A DNA stretch of 64,000 nt, from NCBI GenBank assembly GCA_027604185.1, contig JADGKB010000038.1, positions 51,250-115,249 on the forward strand. Reading direction: 5' to 3'. This DNA comes from Boothiomyces macroporosus (lineage: Eukaryota > Chytridiomycota > Chytridiomycetes > Rhizophydiales > Terramycetaceae). Positions 798 through 63,763 of this stretch are shown piece after piece. The number at the start of each line of letters is the position of its first letter. Position 1 is the first letter of the stretch. Position numbers and translations under genes: made by a program. Under the pieces are notes generated by a model, which saw only the letters and a list, made by a program, of their open reading frames with translations, did not search any database and had not been told where the DNA came from.

Positions 798-1744
798 ATG
801 GAACCACCGCCAGAACTCAAGAGCGTCTCCACGTATTTGATCAGAGGAAAAGAATTGGAAGACAAGGAGCCTATAGTGTCGTATTTCTGTAAGATTTCCC
901 TTACCTAGGCTATCTGTATGCAACCAAGCTGTCGATTTCACTAGGAGCAAAATCAAAAGAATCGCAACAGTTCATTTCATCGTTGATGGATAAATTGGAG
1001 CAGGTAATCAGCGGTTCAAGATAGGATAAAGTCAAATTGGCCGAGTACGAAGCGATCAATGATGATGATGTTGGTTACGCACATTTGGAAAACTTTGGAT
1101 TAAAGATATTTTTGAATGCAGACAATGAGGATCGTAACGGACTAGCCTCCAAGTATCAATAATTTGACGATAGGAAAACGGTAAAGACGTTTGTAGCTGC
1201 ATCAGTGTTCTTGGAGTGTTTAAAGATTTTCAAAGATGGAGAATTGGACGATGATATCAAGCAAAAGATCAAATATGCAAAATACAAGGCGGCCGATATT
1301 ATGAAAGCCTTAAATGAAGGCAGAAAGCCTAACCCTGGCCCTCCAGGCTCTGAAATACCATCTGCTACACAAACTTCTCCAGTTGTCATAGTGCCTCCTC
1401 CAAATTTGAATGAAGCTGGTCCATCAGTTCCACCGGTAGTTCCACCAAAAGTGGTAGCTTCCGCTCCAGTGAATTACAGCACTTTACAAATTCCTCCTGA
1501 ATATGCACATTTGCCAGTGTATCAGCCTCCATCTACTGTTCCACTGCCTAAGGATTTCTCCTCAGTCCCAGATGAAGATTATGAACTTGAAGATGATTAT
1601 ACTGAAGAAGAAAGAAAAGTAATTCTTGAGGCTGGAAAATTGTCAAAGTTCGCTATGAGCGCTTTGCTCTACGATGATGTAAAGACTGCGGTCGATAATT
1701 TAGAAAAAGCGTTGGGAATGTTGAAGCCATTGAAGCAAATATAA
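798..1744 (+). CDS. VTA1: Vta1/LIP5-like ESCRT-III regulator
   Basis: Four exons with introns at 889-908, 1004-1024 and 1153-1173 give 294 aa. The N-terminal half (start PPPELKSVSTYLIRGKELE, then LSLGAKSKES-like helices) matches the double-MIT domain of Vta1/LIP5, which binds ESCRT-III and CHMP proteins. A proline-rich linker spans roughly residues 140-215. The last 45 or so residues (EERKVILEAGKLSKFAMSAL, then DDVKTAVDNLEKALGML) are the Vta1 C-terminal domain that activates the Vps4 ATPase. The protein acts in the cytosol on late endosomes during multivesicular body sorting. The ATG at 798 gives the conserved N terminus. The SUMO protease gene begins 27 bp after its stop on the same strand. 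Confidence 0.93.
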
Positions 1745-1771
1745 TGTTGAACTTTTTTCATTTTTAAATCT

Positions 1772-3484
1772 ATGAAGAGGAGATCTTCACCTGCAGTAGG
1801 AAAAAAACGGTGGAGCTTAATTCTTCCTTGGAATTGGTTTCAAAACAGGAGTGACTCACCCGGAGTGAATACCGTGGATCCTCAAGAGACAGCAAAGTCT
1901 GGTACGGAATATATATCAGATAGAAAAACGGAATTAAATCCCAACAAAGTAAATTTGAACGAGACTCCAGCGAATGCGCAAAAACAGCAAGTTCCACGGA
2001 CGAGTGAAATTATTTCAATTGTAGAGATAGCTGATGATATAGAAATATTTACTCCAGGTTCATCAAATATCAATTCGCCTACAAAATATCAAAGTGTTTA
2101 TTCGGAAACGAAATCAGAATTGTCAACGAATGATTCTCTTTTTCAAAATTTACGAGATTTGGAATTGGAGTCAATGAGGAAACCTTTCAAACCAAAGGCG
2201 AATAAACGGACTAGAGATTTCTCTCGAAAATTAAGACTACAATCAGTCAGAAAAAAAGTATAGGTGGACTAAACATAAGCAAAAAATAGAACAAGAGGAG
2301 GCAACCAATAGTCTATTCAAGCAGCATGTTCCAAAGAGATATATGGAAGCGGTTAAGCAAGGTTCATTTATTACTCAAAGAAGGCTTTGAAGGGACCATG
2401 GAAGATTTTGAAGAATATGAAATCTATAAAGGGACAGCGGAAAGATTTACAAAGCCAAGCAAACAATCTCAAAAGTATCGTAAGATTAAATTTATTCAGT
2501 GGATAATTTTGAACGAAAAAAGACAGATAAAACACCAGTGCCAGTCCAATCTGAGTCTCCAATTGAATTTACTTGGATGAAAGATTTATCTGATTTAATT
2601 GCTTACTACAGCAAGCCGAAATCTGTTGACCTGGATCTTCCTGTTCCATCTACTCCACACTTCAATAGGTTAAAGAAAGAGGACCAAGAAAGACAGGAAA
2701 AGATACGGAAATTGAGCAAGAAAGATAATTTCCCGCCTTTATCCAAAGAGGCATTAGAAGAAGTACTTTAACTTAATACAGGTAGCTAGAAATAGTGTGG
2801 GATCAGGAGTTGTCGTCGAAGCATTTAAAATTGAAATCAAGAAACAGGACTTGAAAACTCTTGCTGGCCGAAATTGGTTGAATGACGAGGCACATTGAAT
2901 TTAAATTTAGATTATCAATTTTTATGGAGAACTGGTGATGGATCGCGCAAAAAAGGATTCAGGCTACCCCAAGATTCACATATTCAACACCTTTTTCTAC
3001 GAAAACTTGAACAACAAAGGATACAGCTCTGTTCGAAGATGGACGAAAAAATTTGATATATTTGCACTTGATGTGGTGATTATACCTGTTCATTTGGGAA
3101 TGCATTGGGTATGCTCCGCAATCAATTTCAAACAGAAACGGGTGGAATACTATGATTCTCTCCACGGAAGCAATGAAAGGTGTATTGCGGTAGATGTTTC
3201 TAATTCAGAATTTAAAAAGTTATATAGCAAGTGAGAGTCTGGATAAGAAAAAGAAAGAGTTTGACTTTACTGATTGGAAAGACTACTCGCCAAAAGTATT
3301 TTCTAATTAACATTAGGATATACCCGCCCAGCACAATGGATATGACTGTGGAGTTTTTACTTGCATGTTTATGGAATATCTGTCAAGACAGGCTGAATTT
3401 GATTTTGGCCAAAAACATATGGAATACCTACGGAAGCGAATTGCGCATGAAATTATAAACAAGAAATTATTGGCTTCTAAATAA
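1772..3484 (+). CDS. Ulp1/SENP-type SUMO protease (peptidase C48)
   Basis: Eight exons give 523 aa. The basic, Ser-rich N-terminal half is not conserved. The C-terminal roughly 210 residues are a C48 cysteine protease: AGRNWLNDE joins IINFYGEL across a GC-AG intron, followed by WTKKFDIFALDVVIIPVH, the catalytic His in LGMHWVCSAI, the catalytic Asp in VEYYDSL, and oxyanion Gln plus nucleophile Cys in PAQHNGYDCGVF. The whole triad is present. Such enzymes mature SUMO and remove it from substrates at or near the nucleus. The catalytic introns are 19-21 nt. Ulp1 versus Ulp2 cannot be settled by eye, but the compact C-terminal catalytic domain favours the Ulp1/SENP1-2 type. Confidence 0.92.
2890..2910 (+). 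other. GC-AG mini-intron in the SUMO protease gene
   Basis: A 21-nt intron that starts GC and ends TTTAG. It interrupts the invariant W-L-N-D-x-I-I segment. Removing it restores NWLNDE followed by IINFYG and the frame of the catalytic domain. No GT donor nearby gives an open frame. Confidence 0.85.
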
Positions 3485-3520
3485 AGCATTGTAATTACCA
3501 TTTTCTTTGAAATATTTTTC

Positions 3521-5108
3521 ATGAAAAATTACACTGATCCTGGAGAACCAAATGAAACAATAGTACTACATGGTCTTTCATATCAAACGGACGAAACAGC
3601 CGTACAGCTCGTATAACGATAGATCAGGAATGCATTGATTGATTCCAATGCTGCATTTACGCAGATGCGATTAGTTCGGGAAAGGTCGACAAATAAATCA
3701 AGGGGATTCGCATTCGTCACTTTCTTTTCTCTAGAGCATGCAATAGAATGGGTCAGCAATAATATACCAGTTGTAATGATTGATGGAGTTGAGAGCAGAA
3801 TAGAGTATGCCAAACCTGTTTTGGATGACGACTGGGAATGCAGTCTGGTAAGAATTTACTAATATTGTGTGGAGGAGTGAATTTCAAAAAGAGGGAAATC
3901 TGTTATAGATGTAAATCTCCTAAAGGTGCTGAAATACAGAAACAAATCGTAAACGATGGTGGACAGGATGTTGGCAGCACTCCATCCCACTTACTATTGC
4001 TTCGAGGATTAGATCCAGAAACAACGGTGGAAATGGTTCTTTATTGTTAAACCAGGTGCATAAAACAATGAGTGATCTGGCTCCAGTTAAGTCGGTGATG
4101 TTGGTTAAAGATCGAAATTCATATGCAAAGAAGTCTTGGGGGTTTGCTTTTGTTGATTGTGATACAATTGAGGTAATTCCATTCTGACAAGGTTGCAAAC
4201 CAAATCTTGAACGTAATTTTCAATCAAAGAAATCCCAAGCCTTTATACATTGACGATAAACCAATCTATATAGCTTATGGGCACTTGGGGTCGTTTATTC
4301 CCATGAATGCAGCTGATAGCTATATTTCCTTTGCGCGAAATGATAATGGAAAGCAGATTTTTTACTCTTATTGGGATCAGGTAGAACTATCCTAAAAACA
4401 GGGTGCGTCGTGTGTTCCTTTCCCTAACGAACTAATTATCGAGAAAGCCGCTGAAACAATTTCAAGCAAAGAGAAAGTAGAAGAGAAGGAGTATCCGAGT
4501 TATAATATAGAAATCCGAAAAAGAAAGTAAAAAAGAAGACTTTAGACGGGAAATTTTCGCTGCAAGTCCTTCGTTGGGTTGAAAAGCAAAAGGAGCTTGA
4601 TGCTGGAGACATAAATGAGTATACTGAGGAAGAATTGCTACTGGTAAACGACTGCTAATCGTAGAAACTGCCTGACGATCATATTGTTAACGAAGAATAT
4701 ACAGATTTTAATCGAATTGCATGTTTATTGTGCCAGAGGAAATTTCAAGATTTCTCCCAGCTGGATCAACACTTTCGCCTGTCAAAGTTACACTGCAAAT
4801 CAATGACAATCCTGCGACTAAAACAGATTGAAGATTTAAGACAGATGTTGATTCAGCAGAATCAATTGGTTGAATATCCAGAGGAAAAAGAAACCGAACG
4901 GCCTACCTTAGATGGTATAAAAGAAGACAACAAAGGAAATAGACTTTTACAGAAAATGGGCTGGAAAGAGGGTGAGGGACTTGGTCCCAGCAAGATGGGG
5001 ATTTTGAACCCCGTGAAACCACAAATCATTCCCAAAGGTGTTGGAATTGGATCTGTAAAAATGAAAATAGGAAAAGCTAAACTTTCAAAGAAAAATATAT
5101 TATCGTAA
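3521..5108 (+). CDS. RBM5/RBM10-like splicing regulator (RRM, RanBP2 zinc finger, RRM, C2H2, G-patch)
   Basis: Eight exons give 481 aa with the RBM5/RBM6/RBM10 domain order. RRM1 spans about residues 10-95 (TIVLHGL, SRGFAFVTF). A RanBP2 zinc finger follows (DWECSLC, then N, then CYRC). RRM2 spans about 135-225 (LLLLRGL, WGFAFVD). Next come an aromatic stretch where the OCRE domain would lie (FARNDNGKQIFYSYWDQ, degenerate), a basic KKKVKKK patch, a C2H2-like finger (CLLCQRKF, then QHFRLSKLHC), and a C-terminal G-patch (LLQKMGWKEGEGLGPSKMG). In animals these proteins work in the U2 snRNP A complex and regulate exon choice. One of its introns ends in TG, and the RanBP2 finger fixes that boundary. 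It starts 36 bp after the SUMO protease stop. Confidence 0.88.
3848..3867 (+). other. GT-TG mini-intron in the RBM5-like gene
   Basis: The sequence is GTAAGAATTTACTAATATTG, 20 nt, with a good donor and an ACTAAT branch site but TG at the 3' end. Removing exactly these bases yields DWECSLCGGVNF, the invariant W-x-C-x2-C-x3-N of the RanBP2 zinc finger. The next AG downstream leads to an immediate stop. A base-call error (A read as T) is the alternative. Confidence 0.75.
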
Positions 5109-5347
5109 TATTTATGTATCCGTTAATGCACATGCAATTCGTGGTGTTCAAATTACCCTTGCTCATAGGATGAATTACCAGGGATTCCAGATCGCTATTG
5201 CCAAAAGGCGTTGAGGCCATTCAGCTTCACATTTTCTAATCGGCAATATTTTCATGCTCCAGAGCCTGACTGATTTTCAAAGCACATGGGTGTAATTGGC
5301 ATGTGACTTTATGGTTAAAATCAACGAAAAAATAGAGTTTCAAAAAA

Positions 5348-9557: not shown

Positions 9558-10345
9558 ATGAAAACCGTCTATTTTTGCAGGCATGGAGAGACCCATGCGA
9601 ATGCATCCAGAATTTTGCAAGGTTCTGGAATCGATATGGATTTAAATGGTAATGGCAAATTGCAAGCCAGGGCATTGCAGGAAGAACTCAAAAATAAACC
9701 GCTGGAGATGATAGTGTGTAGTAAATTAAAAGTTGCTGAATGATTTATTTAGAGAGCGAGGCAGACTGCTGAAATAGTTGGAAAGTGTCATCCCACAGCA
9801 ACATTCATGGAAATTCAAGAATTGGAGGAGTCTAGTTTTGGAGACTGGGAGGGGACAAAGTCACCGCTATTAAATGAACTACTTACAAAGTGGGGCAATG
9901 GACAGTTCGAGGGTGATTAGTTTCTAACAGTAGAGAAACCGCCAAATGGTGAAAGTCCCATTGACGTTCAAAACAGAGTAATGCCAGTGATATACGATAT
10001 AATTTTGAATAGAGAAGAATCGGTGATACTTTTTGTTGGTAAAGACTCCCTAATCTAGTACACGGAGCGATGCTGCGGATTATATTATCATCTCTATTAT
10101 TCCGATCTTTGGATAACACACATTTATTTTCTAATCACAATGCATGTATTAATGTACTCCAGATTCACGTCCAAGACGGTTCTGTCGATAAGCCATTGCA
10201 GGATGATCGGCTAGTTTTGAAACAGTTTGCGAATGGTGCTCCTATTCATACGGTGAGGTCAACTGGAACCCATCCAGAAAACCTGGTAATGATCCCAATA
10301 TTGTTGGATTACACTGGTCATTTAAAGTACACAAGGAAATGGTAA
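9558..10345 (+). CDS. Histidine phosphatase superfamily (phosphoglycerate-mutase-like), copy B
   Basis: Four exons give 242 aa. It has the same motifs as copy A: FCRHGETHANASRILQGSG, the acidic SSFGDWEGT segment, and VHGAMLRIILSS with the second catalytic His. Intron positions match copy A exactly: after SKLK, in the loop before the PNGESP segment, and inside the V-V/H-G motif. The second intron (9913-9930) is only 18 nt, while its counterpart in copy A is 34 nt. This is a tandem duplicate followed by divergence. All catalytic residues are intact, so it is probably active. Its stop is 19 bp from the convergent stop of the RGS gene. Confidence 0.85.
9913..9930 (+). other. 18-nt intron (among the shortest in the window)
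   Basis: The sequence is GTGATTAGTTTCTAACAG. It has a GTGATT donor, a CTAAC branch site and the acceptor AG directly after it. Removal joins GGACAGTTCGAG G to TA GAG AAA in frame, at the same position as the 34-nt intron of copy A. Confidence 0.9.
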
Positions 10346-23682: not shown

Positions 23683-26600
23683 ATGGACTCAAAGAGAACA
23701 AGCGAGAAGTTCAACTCGCAAGATACCGGAGTATCCGTTGCTATAAGAATACGACCATTCAACCAGAGAGAGAAAAAGTTTGGAGATTGTGATCCTTCGA
23801 TCATAGTCGAAAATAATTCTCTCTTAACCCAGACAAACCCTACAATTCAATTTAATTTTGGTATGATTTGCATTTAATTAGATCACGTACTGCAACAAGA
23901 CTCCTCAACGTTGGATGTCTATAATGCTGTTGCCAGTGACGTAGTATCTTCATGTGTGGACGGAATCAATGGTAAACATTCAAATTTACTAAGGCACAAT
24001 ATTTGCGTATGGGCAAACATCTTCTGGAAAAACATATACGATGTTTGGAACTGAAAAAGAGCCGGGGATTATGAATTTATCAATCAAACATATTTTTAGT
24101 CACATATCACAAGTATAAAGGGGTTTGCTAATTGTAGAGTGAAAATAGGGAATTCTTACTTCGAGTTAGTTACGTGGAGATATACAACGAAGTGATCAAA
24201 GACCTATTAAAGCCAGGAAATGAAAATTTGAAAATCCACCAGAATCCAAATGGCGAAATATTTGTAGGAGATTTGACAGAACATGTTGTCGCCTCCTTGA
24301 ATGACGTGGAAAATTTATTGATAATTGGAGATCGGAATAGGCATATTGGTGAAACAAATATGAACGAGAAAAGTTCCCGATCACATACTATTTTCAGAAT
24401 GGTAGGATTCTCCTAATTTAGACTATTGAAAGTAGAGAACGTGTTTCCAGTAAATCAAGATCTGCATCTGGAGCGGTAAAAGTGTCAAATTTGGTACTTG
24501 AAATTTTATTTTAGAATTTGGTAGATCTGGCCGGCTCTGAGCGTGTTGGGCATACTGGTGCAGAAGGTATCCGTTTGAAAGAAGGAGGGCACATAAATAA
24601 GAGTCTTTTAGCCCTCAGCACTGTGATTGCAAAGTTATCTGAAGGCAGGGATAGGTATTTTCACATTAATCCAAGTTTACACATTCCATACCGAGACTCG
24701 AAATTGACCAGAATGCTTCAGTCCTCATTGGGAGGGAATGCGAAGACGGGGATTATCTGTACGATTACACCGTCACTGATACATATGGACGAAACCCTTT
24801 CGACACTGAGATTCGCTAGCCGAGCCAAAAATATAACAAACAAACCTAGAGTGAATGAAGTAAGTTTGAATTTATTGTAGATTGTGCCAGAAGGGACTCT
24901 GCTAAAAATCTATAAACAGGAAATTAACGAGCTCAAGAAAAAGCTAGACCAAGTAATTTCATCTAATGCAGGCAAACGAAAGCTCCCGTTTGTCAGATAT
25001 CTCAAAAGAAGAATTGCTTGAGAACAGAGAGAAAATCAAACTGGAAGCAAAGATAAAGAAACTAGGATTAATGATACTTGATTCTTCAAAAGTAGAAAAG
25101 AATGGAAAATCAAATAATGTAATTAGAATTTAAATATAGAAGAGCAAGAGGAGACAAACATGGGTTCCTTCATCATTCAACTCTCCAAATCTGAATACCA
25201 ACAACGAAAACGACACTGACATTGACCAAATGCCATCCAGCGAGATTATGGGAATTATTATGAAAATGATTAAGGGAGAAATTAAGGAAGAGGATGTAAA
25301 AAGTTTGGAACTTTTGGTAATTTTCCGGTAATTTAGAAATTGCATCGATATATTCAAGATTTGAAGGATAATGCCTCCAATACTTCGAATGAACGTAGCA
25401 ATATAGGTTCAGGCGATGGAGAACACAAAAGAATGCTCGAAGAGGAAACACAAGTAGAGTCAAAGAGATTGAAAACCTCTCACATAGATTCCAACAGTGA
25501 TCTTCTTTCTCAGGATATGCTGGAGGATGAGCTATTACGGTCTTTGGGTGTGTCAACGGCGGACGATTTATATGCCTATCTAAACGATTGTAATAAGAAG
25601 TTATCTGAGTATGAAAAACTGAACTCCCAACATGGTGATAATCTACAAAAATTACACTCTTTAGAAGAGAAGTTGGTCGACTATAACAAAATTGAAAACG
25701 AACGAAATGACTTGATAGAGCAAATAAATCAAGTAAAGACAATGCTGATGACCAATTCAAATAATGGGACGGATGGATTAACACTTCTTGAATTAATGAC
25801 TCTTGAGAAGAACAAGGTTAATGCTGGAATACAATATCTTTCGGGATTAATTGTCGAAAATCATGCGGACGATTATGAAGAATTGGATGCGAATCTTTTG
25901 GGGAATATTGGAATTCCAAGTCATCACAAACTAATCACCATTTTAAAGGAACACAAGAAAACCCAAGAGCTCTTATCATCATTGTGTACCAAGTATGGGC
26001 TAAATGACATTTCACTAAATTCACTTTTATCCTACTTTGAAGATGAGCGTTTGAGTAGAGGAAATGCCATGGAGATGAAAAATTCTGAATTTATTAATCT
26101 AAAAAATAGTTATGAAGAGCTTCAGACAAAATACACCAACTTGGAGGATGAATTCAAACAAAAAACGGAGGAAAAGAATCTGCTTGACCAAGATACTGAA
26201 ACATTAAGACATTCACTAGAAACTTATCAGAAAACCAACGAAGCATTGCTGGTTGATATGAATAACCTTCAATTAGAGAACGCTGGATTAAAGTCCAACC
26301 TTAGCACGCAAAGATCTGAATACGAGCGCTTAAAGGAGGAGTTTACTTTTAAAATGGATCAAACGGAAGAATTTGAAATCAAGTTTGGCAATGAAATCTT
26401 CAAATGCAACACCAAAAACTTGATAGACGATCAAATTGCAATTCAAAACAGAATCGATGAAGTGTTGCACTTGAAAGAAAGTGACTCAAAAGAGTTGCAA
26501 CAATACCGCTTGATTATGAATGAAATATGTACAAGCATTGGCTATAACGCGGAACAATGGTCCCCTTCCGAAATCAAACACCAGCTGGACAAGGTTTTGG

Positions 26601-31158: not shown

Positions 31159-32473
31159 TTACTTTTTTTGTTTTGCAGAAACTAATTCATTGTAAGCAAC
31201 TTCTTCAGCCTCGACTGTCTTTCTCAAAGCTTCCAATTCCTCAAGCATTTTTTGACGAGTGTTGTTCAAAGCCTCTTCTCTTTCCCTCAAGCTTTGTTCC
31301 TTTTCTCTAACCTTGGCAACGAATCTTTGGCGCATGGCTTCCTCCTTCTTTTGCATTTCATCAGCGAGATTACGCTTTGCGTTTTCAATTCTTGATTCGT
31401 AAAAGTCGTCACAGGCCAAGAATGATTCTGGTCTTCCGTTACCTCTAATCTTTTGCCCACGATATGTTGCATAGTGAATCGAATGAGTGGTGTCAATTAG
31501 ATCTTGCATGTTTGTTCTGATATTAATTACCATTTACCCAATCAACAGTTCTCTCAAATGTACAAAATCGCAGTGCAAAGGGTTTTCTACTTCAACGTTT
31601 CCCCATCTATAAGATCTTCCTCTAACCATCTTGCCGTTCACATTAATTAATTTGTCGCTTCCGATCACAGTAAATGGAATATGCTGTTCCAACTCGGCGA
31701 TGAATTCTCTATCTTCGGCATGGAAGGTTGGATAAGCTCTAATGTCATACTGTTCAAAATCGCGCAAGATAGCTTTCTTGTACAATGATACTTCCTCTGG
31801 TGCCAAGGCATCTGCTTTTGCAATAACAGGAATAACATTTACTTTTGAACAGATTCTTTGCAAGAATTCGACATCCAAGTCATTCATTCTAAATTAACTA
31901 TTTTATACCTGTTGATCCCGGTTGGCGGTAAAAAGTACAACAGCGCGTGTACTCTAGTGTCTGGAATATTCCCACGAATTTCTTGAGACCTTTCTGCTGC
32001 TAAATATTTGTCATGTTGCTTTTCGATATAATTGATGATAGGTTCAAAGCTAGTTTGAGTAAAGTGTTACTTTGTTTCACGGTTTAGTTGGTCTCCGAAT
32101 CCAGGGGTGTCAATCACAGTCAAAAACAACGTTACTCCGTCTTCTGTGAGTTCAAAAGTGGTAGGGTTGATTTCGACAGTTTTTGAAGCAAACAGATTTT
32201 GTGGTGCGATTTTCTCAGTTAATGGTGCGTTGAACAAAGTGTTTAAAAATGTAGTTTTTCCCAATCCTGATTCACCAGCGACCATCAAGTTGAAAGCGTA
32301 TGGTCTCTTTTTGGAGCGTTTCGCTTGCTGTTTTGGAAGCTCTGCAATTCCCAAGGATGAATTTGGTCTTAGTGTAACGGAACGAGGGAGTTTCCATGGA
32401 CCTGGGTCAGGGTTTAATCCACGAAATTGTAAAGCGTATTCCTATTATTAGTTTGAATTTGTACCAAAGGCAT
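31159..32473 (-). CDS. Septin
   Basis: Five exons give 409 aa. The start MPLEYALQFRGLNPDPGPW is set by a first 23-nt intron. A basic patch KRSKKRPYAFN precedes the GTPase domain: P-loop GESGLGKTT, G3 DTPGFGD and G4 IAKADALAPEE. The septin-unique element ends in RGRSYRWGNVEVENPLHCDF. A C-terminal coiled coil (about residues 320-409) starts at ENAKRNLADEMQKKEEAMR. Septins assemble into membrane-bound filaments at division sites and growth tips. The paralogue group (Cdc3, Cdc10, Cdc11 or Cdc12) was not assigned. The coiled coil argues against Cdc10. Confidence 0.95.
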
Positions 32474-36789: not shown

Positions 36790-38602
36790 TTAGATAATGT
36801 TTCCAGCAGCATCAACCTTTTTGAATTTAGAAGGTCTTTCTCCAACTCCGCCAAAAGAGTCGAAAACAATACCACATACCGCGTAGGTCAAAGTCTCTGT
36901 TTCTTCTTTGGTTTCAGCTTCAGCATAAACTCGAACAACATCCTCAGTGCCGGATGGTCTAACAAAGCAGCGACCTTTCTTGAATTTTGCAACTTGGGCA
37001 TTAATCTTTTCTTGCAGTCCTTTTGGTTCAACCAACTCTGTGTCAGCTTTAATCGGAACGAATGCAGCTCTTGATGCAACCTACTGTGAAATTATACATA
37101 CTTTAACTTTTTCTTGACGACTTGGTAAATCAGTGTAAGCGCTGTCCCATTGTTTGAATGACTGTTGGGTGCACACTAAAATCGCTTCGACCATCAACAT
37201 ATCAGATAAAGCATCTCCAACCGTTTGGTTAATTAGGTCAGACAGAGCACGCAAAGTCTCGATAGCTTTCTTTTCAGCTTCATTTTTTCTACATAAACTA
37301 AAATATACCCTTCAGCATTCTTGAAGGCAGTAACAGCGGCATCACTGAATAATACAGTGCCATGACCGTTAGCTTCAAAATATACTCCAACATCAAAATG
37401 AGCAGCCTCATGGTGCAAATGCTTAACTCCAGTCGGGGTAAATACAGTTGGAACTTGCAACTTGTTTTTGACATAATCAGTGGAACTTCCATTGGCATAA
37501 GCAGTTTGCACTAACCCAACCCTAAGAGGGGATTTGTCAGCGTGGGTGACATTTGCTTCTTTGATCTTTGACATGATAAATCCAGCTGCCAAAGTAGCGA
37601 TTTTATCGCCATCCAACAATCTAAACACGCCAGCTAAATTACTAACAATTACCATCTACGTTAAAAGTAATGTACCATCTACAAAATAAAAAACAATACG
37701 ATCTGCGTCACCGTCAAGGGAGCATGCCCTTTGGTTTGGAGACAAGGAGGTTCCACGAGGGGCTTTCTGTCCAATTTTCACATAATCAGCTCCACATTCA
37801 AAGTTCAAAACACCTTTTCCATTGATATCAGTGTTGCTAGAGGTAACTGCTAAATCCTCGCCAAGATGCTGACACAATTCCTTCAACGCAACTGCACCAA
37901 TACCATTTGCGCAATCAACAAGTAATGGTGATAATCTTGGCTTTCCAGATACAATTTTTTTGAATGCATCAGCCAATTTCTTGTGATAGCCATCAGTAGT
38001 AGGCTCCCCATAGGCATTTGGTGTATTGGCAGTGTTGATACATCTGGTAACATAGTGCAATTGAGGGGTGGTTTGTAATCCATAATCAGTGATCTTTCCA
38101 TTCAATGCTTTGACACCATCTTTCAAGGATGCAACTAAAGCCTCTCCAGAAGGTCTTTATAAACGAAAAGTTACCTAGTGTCCCTAGCCACCACAATATT
38201 TGCAGGAGCATCCATATTGATTTTGCATTTCTTGATAATATCGTCCAACGCGGCTTGTAATTGCTGATGAGTTTCACAGTTTGCCAATGTAATAGCATAC
38301 TCTTCCCAAGCTTGGTCCAACATTTCACCAAGTGGTTCTACCAGTTTTACACCGTTATCCTCTCGGTTAAACTTCACTTACAGCTTCAGGATTGTGCGAT
38401 GCAGTTACCATAACGCCGATCGTAGCCCCATTATGGCTTTTAGAGCGCAATACAGCAAGCAATCCCACTGTGAACATGATTGAATCAAGCAAATCAGATC
38501 TAGTTTAATCACCTTATACTTCATGCGGAACCCGGCGGTACCATAAGTGAATTTACCAGCAGCTTTAGGATGCTTTTCAAACAATTGTTGCAAAAGTGAC
38601 AT
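36790..38602 (-). CDS. AGM1: Phosphoacetylglucosamine mutase
   Basis: Eight exons give 556 aa. Diagnostic blocks in order are [28 protein letters not shown], the phosphoserine loop [20 protein letters not shown] (across a 22-nt intron), ARDTRPSGEAL, the metal-binding loop [40 protein letters not shown] and the phosphate-binding [15 protein letters not shown]. It interconverts GlcNAc-6-P and GlcNAc-1-P, supplying UDP-GlcNAc for chitin and glycoproteins. The length is close to human PGM3/AGM1 (542 aa). Between DGDADR and DGDK the model needs either a 3-nt exon between two tiny introns or one 42-nt intron. It is divergent from the dephospho-CoA kinase gene with only 23 bp between start codons. 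Confidence 0.95.
37653..37655 (-). other. Possible 3-nt microexon in phosphoacetylglucosamine mutase
   Basis: Two perfectly formed mini-introns, 37656-37675 (20 nt) and 37634-37652 (19 nt), flank a single ATG triplet on the minus strand. Using both gives [17 protein letters not shown]. Using one long intron gives the same protein lacking one Asp. Both keep the frame. Confidence 0.35.
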
Positions 38603-38625: not shown

Positions 38626-39456
38626 ATGAAAATCGTCGGGCTGACTGGAGGGATTTCGACAGGAAAATCCACTGTATCTCATTTCTTGGCCACCTCGCAA
38701 ATCCCAATCTTGGATGCGGATGTCGTAGCAAAAGAAGTTGTGAAACCAGGTGAAGTACTGTGAATCTAACATAGGTTTGCTACCACTTGATATTGGATCA
38801 TTTCGGTCTAGACATACTCGATTACAACTCTCACATTGACCGAGCAGCCTTAGGAAACATTATTTTTACAAATGCTGAAGAAAGAGCGGCCTTGAATAAC
38901 ATTACCCATCCAAGAATCAGGATTGAGCTTTTAAAACAAGTGCTGGTACAATTTTTGAAAGGAAAAAGCATGGTCGTATTGGATACGCCATTGCTTTTTG
39001 AAGCTGGCTTTTATCGTTGGGTTCATACCACTGTGGTAGTCTATTGGTAATTGAAACTAACGTAGCCCAGCCCCAATGCAACTTGACAGGCTGATTGCTA
39101 GAGATGGGATAACTATTGCGCAAGCCCAAAACAAGATGAACTCTCAAATGTCTATTGAACAGAAAAAGACTTTGGCCCATCACGTCATTGACAACTCTGG
39201 GTCGATGGCTTCAACCAGAAAGCAAGCAGACAATCTCATCAAGGAATTGACTCCTCCAACATATACCACACTATTCATGTGGGTGATCTTTTTCTGGCCC
39301 GCTCTTTGGCTTTATGTAATCCTCGAAGTATACACTAGAATTGATAGGATGAGACACTTGGGGATATTTACTCACAGACCAATTCCTGAAGTAGTACGAA
39401 CAAAGAAACCATTTGTTCATGGCTCTGTTCCGCCTGCAGCAGGACCATCACTTTAA
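38626..39456 (+). CDS. CAB5: Dephospho-CoA kinase
   Basis: Three exons (introns of 20 and 19 nt) give 263 aa. The Walker A motif is at the N terminus (VGLTGGISTGKSTVS), followed by LDADVVAKEVVKPG. YHLILDHFGLDIL, IDRAALGNIIFTN, NITHPRI and DTPLLFEAGFYRW are typical CoaE blocks. QLDRLIARDGITIAQAQNKM and DNSGSMASTRKQADNLI form the lid and C-terminal part. The enzyme phosphorylates dephospho-CoA, the last step of CoA synthesis. The last 80 or so residues carry a hydrophobic segment (LFMWVIFFWPALWLYVILEV), suggesting membrane attachment as reported for eukaryotic homologues. Confidence 0.93.
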
Positions 39457-49251: not shown

Positions 49252-51450
<2,199 letters not shown>

Positions 51451-52585: not shown

Positions 52586-53734
52586 GTGCTGTACAAATTT
52601 CGCAGCTCTCTGAGTTCCAGAACGTTTTCTTTTGACTTTCACAAACCAATGAAGGTACAATTCAAGCGGATTTATTTGTGGCTAGCATTGGCTACCTTGT
52701 TGGCAGTTGGAGGAATCGTAGCAATAGCATTGGTTATTCATCATGCCAGCAATCAGCAAACTACAAACTACTCTCTCTCAAAGAGTTGGGATGCGAATGC
52801 AATACTGAACGGTGCAGACTGGATATTTGAGCCAAAGCTATTTGATAGTGATAAAGGATACGTAGAGTATGTTTCAAAACAAGAAGCCCTTGATCTTGGT
52901 ATTTTTAAAGTGGTTGATAACCAATTGCATTTAGGAGCCACTCAAGTGAAAAATGGTCCACCAAAGAGTGTGAAAATAAAAACTGCTACACCATACAACG
53001 GGGGATTGTGGATATTTGACAGGTATTCACTAGTTTAAGAATAGCACTCGCATGCCAACTGGGCCAGGAACTGTAATCTAATCTTAATTTAGTGGCCATC
53101 TGTAATATCTTGCTAATATAGTTTTGGAGCGTAGGACCAAAGGTAAATTCTATTAATCACAGTGGCCAAATAATGGGGAAATTGGTATCTTGCACTGATA
53201 TTAGATATTTTGGAAGGAATCAATGGTTATGGAAATGACACTGTAAGTATACATTCATCGTCCTCGTGTTCACTACCAATATCTGGAAAGCTAACTGATT
53301 GTTCAACACCTGGAAGCGGATGTGCAGACAAAATAAAAGCACCGTTGACATTTGGGGATTCGTTCAACAAAAACCAAGGAGGAATTTATGCAATGGAATG
53401 GGTCGCTCAGACTAATGGATGGATCAAAGTCTGGTTTTTCCCAAGAGGCTCTATACCATCTGATATTGGCACAGGCAAACTTGTACCATCCAAATGGCCA
53501 ATACCAGATGCATACGCCGAATTTAACTTCAACTCTGATTGCGATTCGAGTAATTTCAACGACCATGTAATAATTGTAAACCTTGCATTCTGCGGAAAGT
53601 GGTCTGAAGAATACTTTACAAAGCATGCACCGTATTTGACAACGGACTGCAGAGGATATCTCGGCACGAACTCGTCCGCATTCAACGATATTTTCTTTCA
53701 TCTCAATACCATTAGATACTATACATTGACTTAA
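52586..53734 (+). CDS. GH16 family beta-glucanase-like protein, copy 1 (membrane-anchored)
   Basis: Six exons give 348 aa. A single N-terminal membrane span (YLWLALATLLAVGGIVAIAL) makes it a type II protein with an extracellular or lumenal catalytic domain. Joined exons read MPTGPGTWPSFWSVGPKWPN followed by NGEIDILEGINGYGN, the GH16 active site (E-x-D-x-x-E: nucleophile and acid/base Glu). Other blocks are SGCADKIKAPLTFG, GGIYAMEW, WIKVWFFPRGSIPSDI and FCGKW. GH16 enzymes cleave or remodel beta-1,3(4)-glucan. Five introns of 20-22 nt lie between 53023 and 53204, enclosing exons of 28, 9, 21 and 22 nt. The second Met (MKVQFKRIY) is an alternative start. Confidence 0.9.
53093..53101 (+). other. 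9-nt microexon (GH16 copy 1)
   Basis: TGGCCATCT, encoding Trp-Pro-Ser, lies between 20-nt introns 53073-53092 and 53102-53121. It is required for the GTWPSFW block that is contiguous in copy 2. Confidence 0.9.
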
Positions 53735-53825
53735 AAAAAATATTCTTATCAAGTTTTTCTTTTTTGTTCTCTTTTTGTACTTGCTGGCCGCAAACGATAA
53801 GTGAAGGCGCAAAGATTATTTTTTA

Positions 53826-54835
53826 ATGAAATTGCCGATGGTGACCAGAAAGCATTGTATTCTGATTTTCATCATCAGTTCGGTTGCATTGACCGGCATT
53901 ATTGCCCTCGTATTGTTTCTATCCCACACCAAATACCACTATAGAACTTACACGCTTGTGCATAATTGGAATGCTGATGCAATGTTTAATGGAAATGACT
54001 GGATATTCGAGACGAATAGCCCTACCACTTTAGACAAGGGCTTCATGACTTATGTAAACAAGTCTCTTGCAGTTCAACAGGGTCTTTTCAAACTTGGAAA
54101 CAACTCTTTATACCTTGGTGCTAAACAAACTGGTGACCGCCCAAATAGTGTACGGATTTATACAACGCAGACTTTTACTGGCGGCTTGGTATTAATAGAT
54201 AGCACTCATATACCATCAGGTTGTGGCACCTGGCCAAGTTTTTGGACACTTGGGAGCAATGTAAATGTTACTGATCTTAGTGGCCCAACAATGGAGAAAT
54301 TGACATTATGGAAGGGATAAACGGCCATGGGAACAACACTGTTAGTTTGCATACCAGTTCAGGCTGTACTATGCCAGTTACAAGCAACTTTACTGACTGT
54401 AGCGCTCCAAATGTCGGATGCGAATCAAGCATGAACTCAACCGTTGCTTATGGTGATACGTTCAACGATATTGGTGGAGGAGTTTACGCTATGGAATGGC
54501 AATCTTCAAATGATGGAGGTATTAGGGTGTGGTTCTTTCAGAGGAATGCAATACCAATAGACATAACCAACCAAACCCCAGACCCACCATCATGGCCAAC
54601 GAACCAAACATTTGTATATTTTCCATTTGGATCAAATTGCGACTCTTCAAAATTTAGCGAACACCAAATTGTTATTAATCTTGCCTTTTGCGGTGGATGG
54701 GCTGGAAACCTATTTAACAGCCAATGCTCATGGTGGACCAGCGATTCTTGTACAGACTATGTGGCTAAAAATGACAGTGCATTGCGAAATGCTTACTTTG
54801 AAATCTCTTCAGTAAAGTATTTTGCGCCAGTGTAG
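53826..54835 (+). CDS. GH16 family beta-glucanase-like protein, copy 2 (membrane-anchored)
   Basis: Two exons (one 20-nt intron at about 54261-54280) give 329 aa. N-terminal membrane anchor CILIFIISSVALTGIIALVLF. The block GCGTWPSFWTLGSN is uninterrupted here, whereas copies 1, 3 and 4 have three introns in it. The active site NGEIDIMEGINGHGN follows the intron, then SGCTMPVTSNFTDC, GGVYAMEW, GIRVWFFQRNAIPIDI and FCGGWAG. All catalytic residues are present. It shares the ExDxxE core and disulfide-forming Cys pattern with its four neighbours and was probably formed by tandem duplication. Confidence 0.9.
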
Positions 54836-55144
54836 TAAGATATTCATCCTAATTTGGTTTTGAGTCTGATGATAACCACGACTTGGATCACTGTGCAGTG
54901 GTGTGCTCATGGGATCTGTGTGACTAAAAAAGATCAGAAAAACGATTCAATATATTGGGCTTCATTTAAATTATCTTTTCTATATATAACTGGTTAATTA
55001 TATTTGAATAACTTGTGCAAAGACCAAGCTAATTCAAAGAAATTGTTATCGTAAAAGAACCAAAACTAGAACTGCCAAGCCCAATCTGGGAATTACCGCA
55101 TGGACTGGCCAACAGTATAAAAGAGGCCCGAAAACAAAAATAAC
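54836..55144. promoter_or_regulatory. 309-bp intergenic region upstream of GH16 copy 3
   Basis: AT-rich spacer with no supported gene. It contains a TATAAAAG box at 55116-55123, ending about 21 bp before the ATG of copy 3. Confidence 0.55.
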
Positions 55145-56195
55145 ATGCTTCTATCTGCTCTACTTCTAACTGAAATATTATTCGCAAAATCTGCAATTAA
55201 AAGCTACAGATTGAAAGAAAACTACGAGCCTCACATTATTTTCAACGGAATTGATTGGGTTTTTGATACTGGAGAGTATAATTCACCAAAACAAGGGTTT
55301 ATGAATTACACATCAAGAGAGGATGCGATCCAAAACGAGACTTTTAAATTAGAGAATAACACGCTGTACATTGGAGCAAAGCAACACCCAAATGGAGGGC
55401 CACCTAGCAGTGTGCGACTGATTACCAAAAATTCTTATACGGGAGGATTATGGCTATTTGACAGGTAACTAAAGATAACATAGTGATCATATACCAGATG
55501 GTTGCGGAAGTGTATGAATTGGACTAACATAGTGGCCTTCAGTAACTGGATTGCTAACATAGTTTTGGAGCGTAGGACCAAAGGTAAATCCTGTTAATGC
55601 TAGTGGCCATCAAATGGTGAGATTGATATCATGGAAGGAATCAATGGCTATGGAAACAATACCGTAAGTGTCCATACTTCACCTGGCTGTAATTTTACAG
55701 TGTCAGGTTCCTTACAAAACTGTTCAACTCCTGGTCGCGGTATTTTACCCTAACTCAGGTTGTGCAAATAAAATACAAGCACCATTCACTTTCGGGAGCA
55801 GCTTTAATGGTAACCAAGGTGGGGTTTACGCCATGGAATGGGTGCCTAATGCAAGTGGGTGGATAAAAGTATGGTTTTTCCCAAGAGGAAGGATTCCATC
55901 AGATATTACTCACAACACTCCAAATCCTTCGTCTTGGCCAACTGACGGTGCATACGCAGAGTTCCGCTTCGGTAGTAATTGTCCTTCAACACACTTTAAT
56001 CATCATCACATCGTCTTAAATATTGCTTTTTGTGGTAGATGGGCAGAGGAAAACTTTAGTCAGGATTGCCCGTTGGTGAAGGAGAAAAGCTGCATAGAAT
56101 ATATTCAAAACAACCCGCGCGCCTTGGACAGCGCATATTTTCATATCAACTACGTCAAATACTTTGTTCTAGGGATAAACAATCACAGAGCCTAA
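55145..56195 (+). CDS. GH16 family beta-glucanase-like protein, copy 3 (secreted)
   Basis: Six exons give 314 aa. A cleavable signal peptide (MLLSALLLTEILFAKSA) replaces the membrane anchor of copies 1, 2 and 5, so this protein is probably secreted. After splicing it reads IPDGCGSWPSFWSVGPKWPS and then the active site NGEIDIMEGINGYGN. Later blocks are NCSTPGCANKIQAPFTFG (formed by a 25-nt intron), GGVYAMEW, WIKVWFFPRGRIPSDI and FCGRWAEE. It contains a 9-nt microexon TGGCCTTCA at 55533-55541. Intron positions match copy 1 except that the intron inside GEID is missing and one further downstream is added. Confidence 0.9.
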
Positions 56196-56403
56196 CTGAT
56201 CCCAATAAAACTGGTCTATTTCTAATTTAATTTGATCAGATCAAGGTTTATAATGCTCCGTAGTATGGTAGAACTCAAGTCTCCATCACGGTTGAACTAT
56301 TCTTTATTTCCTCCTGAAAATAAAAGGCGTCCCCAATCTGTGTCCGCATGTGACAATTGGCAATCAATCTTGATTTATAACCAATATTAAAATAATTTAA
56401 TAT

Positions 56404-57478
56404 ATGAAGCACACTGACAGCAGTATATTAGGGCATTCAAATTTTAAAATGGATATGTCTGTTCTCACACATTTGATCCTAGTGTGTACTACTTTAGCAA
56501 CAACCTACAAGCTGGTTTCAAACTACACGCCACAATCTATTTACAATGGCACTGGTTGGAAGTTTGATCCGGGCTACTACGATTCATATACGGGCCAGGG
56601 GTACATGAATTACGTATCTCGCAGTGAAGCAATTAATGAAGGAATATTTAAAATTGAAGGGAATGTTCTTCACATTGCTGCAAAACAAAATCCAAAAGGC
56701 GGACCTCCAAATAGCGTAAGATTAATCACGACCAAGTCGTATACCGGGGGATTGTGGCTGTTTGACAGGTAAATGGATATTAATTAGTTCCCATATCCCC
56801 GCATCATGCGGAAGTGTAATTATATTCTAATTCAGTGGCCATCTTTGTAATTATATAGCTAATGTAGTTGGTCTTGTGGTCCTCAGGTAAAGAATTGTTA
56901 ACAAAGTGGCCAAACAATGGCGAAATTGACATAATGGAAGCTGTTAACGGGTATGGAAATGATTTGGTCAGTTTGCATACATCGTCTGGATGCTCAATGA
57001 CCGTCAAAGGGAAAGTACAGCAATGTTCAACTCCAAACACTGGTCGCTATTATTAATGATAGGGTGCTCCCAGCCATTGAATAGCCCAAATGCATTTGGC
57101 AGCCCCTTTAACGCAAATAAAGGGGGAGTTTACGCAATGGAGTGGGTAAACGAGACAAATGGTGGGATAAAAGTTTGGTTCTTTCCTCGAGGAATGGTGC
57201 CTCAAGATATTCAAAGAAACACTCCAGATCCTTCAAAGTGGCCAACAAGTGGTGGATATGTACATTATTCGTTTGGTCCCAATTGCCCATCGTCACACTT
57301 TCGTGATCATATCATCACGGTTAACATTGCATTTTGTGGTGGGTGGTCCAGCGCATTCTTTGCTAGCCAATGCCCTACTTTAGTGGGAACGAATTGTAAG
57401 GATTATGTGGGCAAAACTCCTTGGGCTTTGAGCAATGCCTATTTTCATATTCTGTCAATCAAGTACTTCAAATCCTAA
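56404..57478 (+). CDS. GH16 family beta-glucanase-like protein, copy 4 (secreted)
   Basis: Six exons give 324 aa. The first 14 residues are polar, followed by MDMSVLTHLILVCTTLATTY, a signal peptide that would start best at the second or third Met. The active site is NGEIDIMEAVNGYGN, then CSTPNTGCSQPLNSP across a 20-nt intron, GGVYAMEW, GIKVWFFPRGMVPQDI and FCGGWSS. The microexon at 56836-56846 is 11 nt, because the following intron sits 2 nt further downstream than in copies 1 and 3. It is closest to copy 3 by intron pattern and lack of an anchor. Probably a secreted glucan-active enzyme. Confidence 0.9.
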
Positions 57479-57634
57479 GGAATACTGTTTTATTTTGAAT
57501 ATATTTGTGTTTATCTAAGAGTGACATTTCATTTGTCTTTTTAATATCAATATTTTAATCTGGTCCACGGCCCTAATCGAAATTTAATATTGCGGAACAA
57601 GTTATAAAATACCAAAACTGCTACCAAGAATCGA

Positions 57635-58746
57635 ATGGGATTTGTAAAGAAATATCGACCAACTATATTCGTCATAACCCTTCTCATATTGCTTGCAGTA
57701 GTTATAGGTGTGATAGTGGCAAGAGAAATAGCTGCTGCACAGTTGTCAAATTCTAGCAACTCAATTTCAACTTCACATAGTGCTCAAAACCACATACCGA
57801 ATGCAAAGCCTACTCATCAAGTATCGGTCGGAACCAATAACGCTTCATCTCCATGGAATCTTACCTTCTACAGCACTCCTAAAGACATTTTGTATGGCAA
57901 CGGGTGGAGCTATTTTTCAGGAAATGATCCTACAAAAGGATATGTAGATTATGTAGACCAACTTACTGCCCAAAGCTTGAATATGCTGCAAATCGGTACA
58001 TCGGGCCAGGAGTATGTACAACTGTCTCCGATAGCAGGATCTCCCCCTAAAAGTATCAGAATATTTTCAAATCAAACTTTTACCGGAGGGCTATTTCTCT
58101 TTGATATATTGCACATGCCAAGCGGCCCTGGTAGTTGGCCCGCAATTTGGCTTGTTGGCCCAAACTGGCCATTAAATGGAGAAATAGGTAGGCAGTATCT
58201 TATCTAGATATCCTAGAAGGAACCAATGGCTTTGGAAATAATACATCAACACTTCATACGCAAGATCGGTGTATTATGACCGAAGACGGGCTGCCAATGG
58301 ACTGCAGCCATCTAGTTTCAAGAACAGGCTGCAACTCTGTAGCAACTGCTCCAAATACGTTTGGTGAAAGCTTTAATAGCGTACAAGGGGGAATTTATGC
58401 AATGGAATGGATTGCTCAAAGTAACGGACATATCAAGATTTGGTTCTTCCAACGAGATTCCATTCCAATCGATATAATCAATGGGAAACCTCTCCCTGAT
58501 ACTTGGCCTACTGATTCTGGGGCATATTCCTACTTTCCGTTCGGGAAAAACTGTAGATATTCGAATTTCGCCTCCCACACAATTGTGATTAATATTGACT
58601 TTTGTGGTACGTGGGCTGGTAGTGTATTTAATGCACAAACTGGTATGAACCAAGGGTGTGCTAACTTTGTTTCCAACCATCCTTCAGCTCTGCAAAATGA
58701 CTATTTTCAAATCTATGGCATTAAAGTGTTTAATAAAGCAAGTTGA
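57635..58746 (+). CDS. GH16 family beta-glucanase-like protein, copy 5 (membrane-anchored)
   Basis: Two exons (one 20-nt intron at 58188-58207 inside the active-site codons) give 363 aa. It is the longest copy. A membrane anchor (TIFVITLLILLAVVIGVIVA) is followed by a Ser/Asn/His-rich stem of about 45 residues. MPSGPGSWPAIWLVGPNWPL is uninterrupted, then NGEIDILEGTNGFGN formed across the intron, GGIYAMEW, HIKIWFFQRDSIPIDI and FCGTWAG. The catalytic Glu residues are present. It keeps only the intron that copy 1 also has in GEID. Its stop lies 11 bp from the convergent APC1 stop. Confidence 0.9.
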
Positions 58747-58757
58747 CAGCAATATAT

Positions 58758-61700: not shown

Positions 61701-63044
61701 CAAGTATGGTTCTGTATACCCAAATTTTACTGTTTTCATAATCCAGTCTAAAATACCCTCAATTTCTATTGGACTTTTTACTTTATAGTGATGATCCGTC
61801 TTTCCGTATCCTTCAATACAATACAATGTTTTCCATTCATGCGAGGATTGATTTAGAATATTAAACATAAACATTCCCATATCATGTTGTAGTTTTTCAT
61901 TCACAGTGAGTAACAGATCTTGGTAGATTAAATGAAAATACGCCAATATTTCATTCAAGTGTTTTGAGAATTCACTTCTCTGTACACCCTGATAATTATT
62001 TTGATCAAGCGTTTCCAATTTCTTTGGCCCTAAACGAACACGTAGCAATTTCGAATCTCTTATTCCAAGATAAGAACAAAACAATCCAGTAAAGCTACCC
62101 CAATCCAATACTTGATTTCTGAATTTGTAATAAAGGTCAACGGGTAAACAAAATTCCATAGCTTTTAAACATTCATTCGTTAAATGGTCTCTAATTTGTA
62201 AATCCAATTTCATTCTTTCTTTGGAATCTGTAAATGTAATTATCACTTCATTTCTAAACGATTTTTCTATTTTTATAATCCTCTTGTCCGTTGAGCCTGT
62301 TTTCCTCTTTTTTGGTTCTTGTCGTTCAATTTCAATTGGAACAAAGGATCCGTTCCATAAACTAATTTTTGATTCTGAATACAAGAGTAAATCCGCTTCA
62401 TCTCGAGTTGCTTGTATTGATAAACAATTAGAATTGAATTCTTGCATAATTTCAAATTTGCTGTTGTAACAAACGAGAATCTGTCCACACTGGAACCAAT
62501 AAAAAGTACCATTTGATTTTATGATTTCGCAGTGGTTAGGGGTATATTTGATCTTTACTGTTTTCACCAACTTCAGTTCTACTGAATCCAACTCACTGTG
62601 AACAAGTTCATAGATATCAACCTGGTTATCATTGCTAGTGACTAGAGTGTCTTTATCGTGGCTAAATACATTGAGAACAGTATTTGAAGTTGAAAGCTTT
62701 TGATAGTCACTGTATATTCCTAGTAATGCAAATACCCCAGATTGCGTATCCAAAATTACTCCGTTCTTTAGCCCAAACATCTTGTTTACTTTAAAAGAAA
62801 GGTTCTTTGGTATTTCGTCTGATTGCTGGTAGATTGTCAGGCACTTGTTTACGACTACTATTGCATCAGAGTCAAAATGGGCGATTGCAACCATTCCGAT
62901 ATCCGCATGAATATTCTGCAATAGCTTTTTGTTTCTATAGACTTGAACTTGAGTGTCTGAATAATATATGGAAATATCACCTTTAGACGCAAAATTGTAT
63001 TTGGTCAAATTGGTAGATTTCGTTTTCAATTTCATTTCGGACAA
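58758..63044 (-). CDS. APC1: Anaphase-promoting complex subunit 1
   Basis: Four exons (three introns of 19-21 nt near 61330, 60080 and 59440) give 1408 aa. The N-terminal roughly 450 residues form a beta-propeller-like region. The middle carries WPEFHIGVASALQIS, WIVFNQKK, HAGFLFGLGLLGHLRKLE, LSHLLGLACSFIGTMNEKV and HLPAMLPNHSIELQTGHML, the start of the PC (proteasome/cyclosome) repeat solenoid. FGAHMALHLSLGLLFLGQGT and TDNRYHLQALRHLWVFAIE are its conserved last repeats, followed by the C-terminal domain. APC1 is the scaffold of the APC/C ubiquitin ligase that triggers anaphase. It is shorter than animal APC1 (about 1900 aa), and most of the loss is in the N-terminal half. Confidence 0.94.
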
Positions 63045-63159
63045 GTTTTAGGAAAAGGTTATTGAAATCATCAAATAGTATTTGTAAATGATGAATAGAT
63101 TCAATAAATAGAGTAAATGATAATAGAGCTTTGTAACTTGTAAGTGTATTAAAAAACAA

Positions 63160-63763
63160 TTAGGAAGCATGCTTCATCAACCAATTTAAAACTGTATCAA
63201 TATTGTTCGAGTTTTTGGCAGAGATTGAGTAACAAGAAACTTCTCTATCAGTGATTGATCGCAATCCAAAAGTTTCAATTAATTCCTCAACTTTTAAAGC
63301 TTCTGGCAAATCGTTCTTGTTTCCTAACACTAGTAGTGGGATTCCACGTAATACTGGTCGTTCAATGAGTGAATGTAACTCGGTTTTAGAAGACGGTAAT
63401 TTCGCATGATCAGCGGCATCAACAACATATACAATAGCATTTACACCTGTCTTAATAGTAATCAACCTCTACAATAACGCTCCCACATCCCTCTGAACCT
63501 GGCTTGACCTCCAAGATCCCACAGTTTCATTACTACACTTCCCTTGGTAACTTTACTGCGTTAGCTAATTTTACCGCATATTAAAACCAACTGTTGGAAT
63601 CATATCTTCAGTAAACTGTCCGTTTGCAAGTACATTTACTAGTGTTGTTTTCCCACTGTTTTGCAGTCCAACAAGCGTCAATTCCATTTCTTGTTATTCC
63701 TAAAGTACCTTGCTTGAAGAACAGACTCTTTAACCAATTTAAAAATGAATTCAAATAATCCAT
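63160..63763 (-). CDS. ARL8: Arl8 small GTPase
   Basis: Four exons (introns of 19, 19 and 20 nt) give 181 aa. [20 protein letters not shown] is the Arl8-type amphipathic N-terminal helix. It is followed by [19 protein letters not shown] (P-loop), [20 protein letters not shown] (switch I), [20 protein letters not shown] (switch II), VLGNKNDLP (G4) and [13 protein letters not shown] (G5). No myristoylation Gly2, as expected for Arl8. In animals Arl8 recruits kinesin adaptors to lysosomes and controls their movement; here vacuolar or lysosomal transport is likely. The length is close to human ARL8 (186 aa). Confidence 0.96.

Follow-up and report, generated by a model that had tools for sequence, protein, structure and literature searches.

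Ultrashort introns of nearly fixed size are known from ciliates, from the relic nuclei of algae and from rhizarian parasites with reduced genomes or cells, as given in the excerpts of the papers cited here and below. Heterotrich ciliates have introns of 15–16 bp, mikrocytids of 16–17 nt and the chlorarachniophyte nucleomorph of 18–21 bp (PMC10245619). In the heterotrich Stentor coeruleus (15–16 nt) the branch A lies at nucleotide 10 of 15, and most core spliceosome proteins are reported, with U2AF1 and U2AF2 listed (PMC9505925). For the unaltered human B complex, Keiper et al. estimated that the 5' splice site and the branch site need to be about 52 nt apart (PMC6692369), and human SPF45 can replace U2AF on truncated polypyrimidine tracts (PMC8363638). 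Here we describe the introns of a 64-kb stretch from the chytrid fungus Boothiomyces macroporosus (contig JADGKB010000038.1, positions 51,250 to 115,249; the whole stretch is called the window below), together with samples from the rest of its genome. Boothiomyces is a genus of free-living saprotrophs. The predicted introns of B. macroporosus are very probably nuclear U2-type spliceosomal introns that have shrunk genome-wide to about 20 nt, with a proposed compact recognition and a size that deletion bias against a functional floor would set.

Intron lengths in the window and the genome

Genes were modelled in the window and in 20 stretches of at most 10 kb from other contigs, picked by place. 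Together these comprise 259,748 bases, so that gene modelling covered 1.7% of the assembly (15,203,306 bases in 216 contigs). The gene model was a two-strand hidden Markov model (HMM) with coding states and intron jumps, for which the training set consisted of long open frames only. In the flat-prior run all intron lengths from 10 to 300 nt were equally allowed and the splice signal was reduced to the end dinucleotides GT and AG; as a control, the same flat-prior HMM was rerun with 38 other dinucleotide pairs. In a refined model both the splice motifs and a mixture of intron lengths were learned. Because the learned length prior of the refined model favours short introns, the flat-prior dinucleotide control is the unbiased test of the length class. 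Raw donor-to-acceptor distance counts gave only a hint of short introns, and an initial model, for which long open frames served as training set, produced noisy calls above 30 nt.

With the flat prior, 307 GT..AG introns were called in the 259,748 bases, and 100 of these were 19–22 nt long, compared with 2–15 per control pair. At greater lengths no excess of GT..AG introns above 26 nt over the 38 control pairs was found in the same sequence: the 27–60 nt class held 38 GT..AG calls against 45–94 in the controls, and the 61–300 nt class 148 against 150–200. The total HMM score did not single out GT..AG (6591), with AT-rich control pairs reaching up to 6709. The GT..AG specificity is thus seen in the 19–22 nt length class only and not in the total score, and the dinucleotide control therefore makes the short class specific to GT..AG while leaving no long class visible.

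The refined model predicted 504 introns, 455 of which were 19–22 nt and 471 were 17–24 nt long. The commonest length was 20 nt (184 introns), with 102 introns of 19 nt, 120 of 21 nt, 49 of 22 nt and 15 of 23 nt. In the window, 173 introns were predicted in 36 gene models, with 160 at 19–22 nt, 167 at 25 nt or less and six at 65 nt or more. The 167 short introns are spread over both strands from 159 to 63708, and at least three of these calls of the self-trained gene model look false. Five of the six window introns of at least 65 nt contain a stop in the upstream frame and an ATG in the downstream frame, as spacers between tandem genes would, and may be read as such spacers. In the 20 sampled stretches, 295 of 331 introns were 19–22 nt long, and at least one such intron was present in 19 of the 20.

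A strict 20-nt pattern, GTAA-N7-YTAAY-N-TAG, matched 611 times genome-wide, as against 36 times for the reversed pattern. All 13 of its matches in the modelled 260 kb are predicted introns. Seven altered 20-nt control patterns were counted over the same 260 kb: five had 0–2 matches, one had eight, none of them predicted introns, and the one with branch YAATY had eight, seven of them predicted introns. The refined set, the sampled stretches and the genome-wide motif all show a single narrow length peak below about 25 nt. Scaling 471 introns per 260 kb to 15.2 Mb gives, by extrapolation, a genome total of about 27,500 short introns. The refined model places 2.2 introns per kb of coding sequence; an excerpt from Lim et al. 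2021 gives a mean intron density of 3.93 in two chytrids (PMC8476143). Pairs of identical or equal matches at C1:16455/18924, C2:282417/325013 and C20:74242/119309 suggest that segments are duplicated, either in the genome itself or in its assembly.

The initial annotation of the window had placed about 160 introns by hand, nearly all close to 20 nt, and had taken the DNA for a nuclear genome of the fungal or animal group. Both the number and the length range agree with the gene model (160 of 173 introns at 19–22 nt), the host is indeed a fungus, and the size lock extends well beyond this locus. A genome-wide mode above 50 nt, which would have spoken against that annotation, was not seen in the 1.7% of the genome modelled or in the one genome-wide motif count.

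Effect of removing the predicted introns

The length of 350 of the 471 short introns is not a multiple of three, and a further 91 contain an in-frame stop, so that retention of 441 of them would disrupt the reading frame. Stops occur in 91 of the 121 introns whose length is a multiple of three (75%), compared with 67% of 21-mers in all frames; this weak excess is not used here as evidence for nonsense-mediated decay.

Removal also restores protein domains. In a Pfam scan of seven of the 36 window gene models, 20 of their 36 introns lay inside domain matches, or 19 when a false call in a MYST acetyltransferase gene is left out. A Vta1 match of 162.5 bits spans introns at 889–908 (20 nt), 1004–1024 (21 nt) and 1153–1173 (21 nt) on the forward strand. 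The kinesin motor domain, scanned over the first 373 residues of the protein (379.7 bits, forward strand), has six introns, which include the first at 23861–23881 (21 nt) and those at 23972–23993 (22 nt), 24113–24137 (25 nt, the longest short-class intron of the window) and 24402–24421 (20 nt). Introns inside Pfam matches were likewise found in a septin domain on the reverse strand (31517–31537, 21 nt; 31889–31908, 20 nt; 32050–32070, 21 nt), in a CoaE domain on the forward strand (38755–38774, 20 nt; 39047–39065, 19 nt) and in an Arf-family GTPase domain on the reverse strand (63447–63466, 20 nt; 63556–63574, 19 nt; 63690–63708, 19 nt).

Five similar genes at 52649–58746, called A to E and judged by eye to be glycosyl hydrolase 16-like, allow introns to be compared between paralogs. 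They are 39–59% identical over 297–325 positions and, with a false call in D excluded, contain 17 introns at six sites, every one of which is read through in at least one paralog. Site 1 is occupied in A (22 nt, 53023–53044), C and D (19 nt each) and empty in B and E. Site 2 is occupied in A (20 nt, 53073–53092), C (21 nt, 55512–55532) and D (20 nt, 56816–56835), and site 3 in A (20 nt, 53102–53121), C and D (21 nt each). Site 4 holds a 20-nt intron in each of A, B (54261–54280), C and D and none in E, site 5 a 20-nt intron in both A and E (58188–58207), and site 6 introns of 19 nt in C and 20 nt in D; the coordinates given are on the forward strand. The paralog alignment is free of gaps at the intron sites, with one exception beside site 6 in D: seven residues are missing there because of the false call. 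Introns at the same site differ in sequence between paralogs and barely in length.

The exon between sites 2 and 3, which encodes Trp-Pro-Ser, is 9 nt long in A (53093–53101, forward strand) and C (55533–55541) and 11 nt in D (56836–56846), in each case flanked on both sides by an intron of about 20 nt; the same stretch is uninterrupted in B and E. Pairs of short introns around an exon of 1–3 nt (about 42 nt in total) were also called, and some of them are errors of the model: in one such pair, in paralog D, the second half is exon. A 42-nt stretch of the phosphoacetylglucosamine mutase gene, at 37634–37675 on the reverse strand, can be taken either as a single intron or as a pair of 20 and 19 nt that flanks a 3-nt exon.

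Two public B. macroporosus protein models were compared with the genome. The U2AF65 protein encoded here shares 98% identity with one of them (P0121) across 98% of its length, and the window's mutase protein shares 98% identity with the other (P0241) across 95%. These two matches settle the species, whereas a Cbf5 tree assigned no firm position; no Boothiomyces protein is among the at least 120 Cbf5 hits listed, perhaps because its public model is absent or has an unsuitable length. On the genome, P0121 has gaps of 19, 253, 52, 20, 19 and 19 nt, and P0241 gaps of 22, 20, 39, 20 and 21 nt. Eight of these 11 gaps are 19–22 nt long, each within 3 nt of a predicted intron; in the mutase gene (reverse strand) the 20-nt intron at 37289–37308 lies at most 1 nt from a 20-nt gap of P0241, and the 22-nt intron at 38360–38381 has the same gap in that model. 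At the 253-nt gap P0121 fuses U2AF65 with a KOW-domain protein, and at its gap of 52 nt it loses a peptide that is retained in Globomyces and Kappamyces. Gene finders with a minimum intron above 20 nt would be expected to break the genes of such a species. One of the two public models checked, P0121, fuses two genes and loses a conserved stretch, as might be expected from gene finders faced with introns of this kind.

Intron anatomy and splicing factors

Judged by their sequence, the predicted introns are ordinary in chemistry and extreme in geometry. Among introns of 17–24 nt the donor consensus is AAG/GTAATT, with A at position 3 in 89%, T at position 5 in 42% and G at position 5 in just 17%. 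This preference for T over G at position 5 is seen despite canonical U1 and U6.

A branch-like motif with its A 3–8 nt before the intron end was found in 394 of the 471 short introns, in accord with the branch site that the initial annotation had placed close to the acceptor. A narrower set of motifs was present in 344 introns; when the intron interiors were shuffled 200 times, the mean was 80 and the maximum 104. Both spacings are narrow. The branch A is at intron nucleotide 14–16 in 376 of the 394, which is 13–15 nt past the 5' splice site, and 5–6 nt follow it in 332 of the 394. In the 292 introns with the six clearest branch motifs the two spacings average 13.66 and 5.48 nt, with a standard deviation of 0.80 nt each. 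Their correlation of −0.21 is just beyond 2000 permutations and may be caused by motif assignment. The shortest intron of the initial annotation, 18 nt at 9913–9930, is more likely an intron of 21 nt that ends at 9933 (forward strand), where the branch A is followed by 6 nt, as is usual. A polypyrimidine tract has no room in the 5–6 nt between branch A and acceptor. The T content upstream of the branch is 42%, compared with 27% in coding and 33% in other DNA, so any weak U-rich stretch would lie upstream of the branch and not downstream of it.

The U1, U2, U6, SF1 and U2AF genes, to which the initial annotation had pointed as worth inspecting, are all present, with canonical recognition sequences in the small nuclear RNAs (snRNAs). 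The U1 snRNA begins AUACUUACCUG and scores 68.8 bits, slightly below the 69.5 bits of Rfam. Two U2 genes contain GUAGUA; they have the branch-recognition region in common and differ in their 3' halves (L001 and L002). Rfam searches also found U4, and a U6 with ACAGAGA. This U6 locus is the sole match and a modest one (62.2 bits); it carries two inserted bases that the Rfam consensus lacks, and the insertion of one of these falls shortly past the AGC of the catalytic region. SF1 is present with helix-hairpin, KH and zinc-knuckle domains, and its KRKTRWGS stretch resembles a U2AF ligand motif. U2AF35 is present, as is Smu1 (472 bits to a solved SMU1 chain). U2AF65 (contig C2) matches solved U2AF65 chains with up to 212 bits over RRM1–RRM2 and up to 83 bits over the C-terminal domain.

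The RRM1 of this U2AF65 is altered and lacks two aromatics of RNP1. In an alignment of the genome's protein with 16 of the 120 homologs listed, the RNP1 motif of RRM1 reads HCHVEF in both Boothiomyces rows, which are probably one gene, and NFAFLEF in the solved chain. Aromatic residues are kept at both RNP1 places in 14 of the 17 aligned proteins, and a metagenome protein, P0124, has SAIVEF. The aromatic positions stack on uridine, and the altered RRM1 would fit a 3' recognition carried mostly by U2AF35 and SF1/U2, as proposed below.

Explanations and relation to known systems

In the explanation that we favour, U1, SF1/U2 and the two U2AF subunits would together read the intron as a single compact unit, and both spacings would be fixed near the minimum that the splicing machinery tolerates. 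As a polypyrimidine tract does not fit between branch and acceptor, U2AF35, which reads the AG, and SF1/U2, which reads the branch, would carry most of the 3' recognition. With the 5' splice site only 13–15 nt from the branch, the two extended helices could not be accommodated together in a B complex of the human type; the helices may be much shorter, or may not coexist as they do in humans, and activation of the spliceosome would take a shorter or reorganised path. Deletion bias pressing on a functional floor would best account for the narrow sizes. A stronger form of this proposal, that the spliceosome of the lineage has itself become adapted to introns near 20 nt, with two ruler spacings (about 14 nt from donor to branch and 5–6 nt from branch to acceptor), loss of poly-U reading by U2AF65 RRM1, loss of the G preference at donor position 5 and an activation that avoids the extended B-complex geometry for which humans would need about 52 nt, is put forward as tentative, with the chances nearly balanced and slightly against it.

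Several observations weigh against these conclusions. The introns are known here from DNA sequence alone, and only the flat-prior runs escape the short-length bias of the refined model. With a flat prior and learned splice motifs, 407 introns were called, of which 216 were 19–22 nt, and 173 calls above 25 nt persisted. Many of the calls above 25 nt in these rounds merge genes or skip short exons, and the 173 are taken as noise because the control pairs yield equally many. Fifty-nine of the 471 short introns have none of the listed branch motifs. Thirty of the 471, 12 of them in the window, are in frame and free of stops, and may be exon. Three of the 12 do look exonic. The call at 50971–50991 reads through as GYGNFLI, a conserved stretch in MYST acetyltransferases; that at 57064–57084 in paralog D, when read through, fills the gap in the paralog alignment; and that at 37679–37699 encodes RIVFYF, conserved among mutase homologs. 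No Rfam match to U5 snRNA was found in the genome; as control genomes also gave no match, this does not show absence. RED_N and RED_C likewise had no match in the genome, in a search with no positive control, so that absence is not shown there either. P0124 also lacks the RRM1 aromatics, and the putative link between the RRM1 change and short introns is a correlation from a single genome.

The alternative that survives best is that the size lock is mostly mutational, the product of strong deletion bias in a compact genome, and that an ordinary spliceosome in this fungus would be good at splicing longer introns. The conserved snRNAs and 3' factors are consistent with this, and a balance of deletion bias against a functional minimum has been proposed for mikrocytids (PMC10245619). 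Each spacing is narrow on its own, with the standard deviation of 0.80 nt given above, which suggests a functional ruler, although a floor combined with deletion could produce the same. We regard this alternative as credible and somewhat doubtful. It is unlikely that the short introns are real and accompanied by a hidden class above 50 nt that the models missed. Across all loci 31 introns of at least 26 nt remain, of which 13 contain the stop and ATG of a tandem-gene spacer and 18 fail this test, and untranslated regions lie outside the model; against such a class, GT..AG shows no flat-prior excess at 27–60 or 61–300 nt. That the calls are chance GT..AG spacings in AT-rich coding DNA, picked up by a flexible gene model, is highly improbable and is refuted for the bulk of the set: in-frame, stop-free 21-mers do get miscalled, as the three exonic-looking calls illustrate, but the 38 control pairs give 2–15 calls against 100, 441 of the 471 break the frame, and paralogs and Pfam matches require the removal. 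Equally improbable is DNA elimination of the kind that removes internal eliminated sequences in ciliates, or a non-spliceosomal removal from RNA, for although some eliminated sequences are similarly small and uniform, the GT..AG ends, the branch motif and the U1, U2, U4 and U6 genes in the genome speak against it.

Nuclear spliceosomal introns shrunk to a near-minimal size thus remain the favoured explanation, and they would represent a fungal genome filled with ultrashort introns that nevertheless keeps the usual 3' recognition factors. It offers a fungal case for asking what the minimum intron size is, since about 20 nt is far below the presumed need of human splicing. A fungus is nearer to yeast and human, whose spliceosomes have been solved, so that a more direct comparison should be possible of how close splice sites can lie to each other and of what U2AF, Smu1 and RED do. 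The initial annotation knew of no such genome among fungi and animals, and the open-licence literature searched does not contradict it. In that literature we found no report of such introns in any fungus, though a subscription paper could exist, no paper on Boothiomyces and introns that was relevant by its title and the start of its abstract, and no paper joining B. macroporosus with a genome. The excerpts of two chytrid genome papers give no intron lengths (PMC5364385, PMC13391722).

Descent is not shared with the heterotrichs, nucleomorphs or mikrocytids. Since the host is a fungus (Chytridiomycota, Rhizophydiales, Terramycetaceae), its ultrashort introns would have a separate origin. Human introns that depend on SPF45 or on Smu1/RED resemble those described here in a short distance from 5' splice site to branch, a truncated polypyrimidine tract and the presence of Smu1. 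However, the human cases are longer, with a 56-nt model intron for SPF45 (PMC8363638) and distances that peak at 50–70 nt for Smu1/RED (PMC6692369). Paramecium and Nyctotherus, like this fungus, have genomes with ultra-short introns only, but both are ciliates and their introns are about 25 bp (PMC5014332). The narrow range is shared with the chlorarachniophyte nucleomorph (18–21 bp; PMC10245619), which is the relic nucleus of an endosymbiont with more than 800 introns in about 300 genes, whereas the fungal assembly is 15.2 Mb. It is also shared with Mikrocytos mackini (16–17 nt; PMC10245619). The mikrocytids, however, have 224 introns in 179 genes, an intracellular parasitic life and a reduced spliceosome in which 17–19 proteins were found (PMC10245619), while the fungus has 2.2 introns per kb of coding sequence and keeps SF1 and both U2AF subunits. 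The likeness to Stentor extends to a near-fixed length, 5 nt after the branch A in many introns, retention of U2AF and conserved U1 and U2 recognition sequences. Unlike those of Stentor, the fungal introns are about 5 nt longer, mainly between the 5' splice site and the branch, and have a clear YTRAY-like branch consensus, where the Stentor excerpts describe no strong one. At the donor the two systems meet again, as the commonest intron of Stentor starts GUAAUU, which matches the consensus found here.

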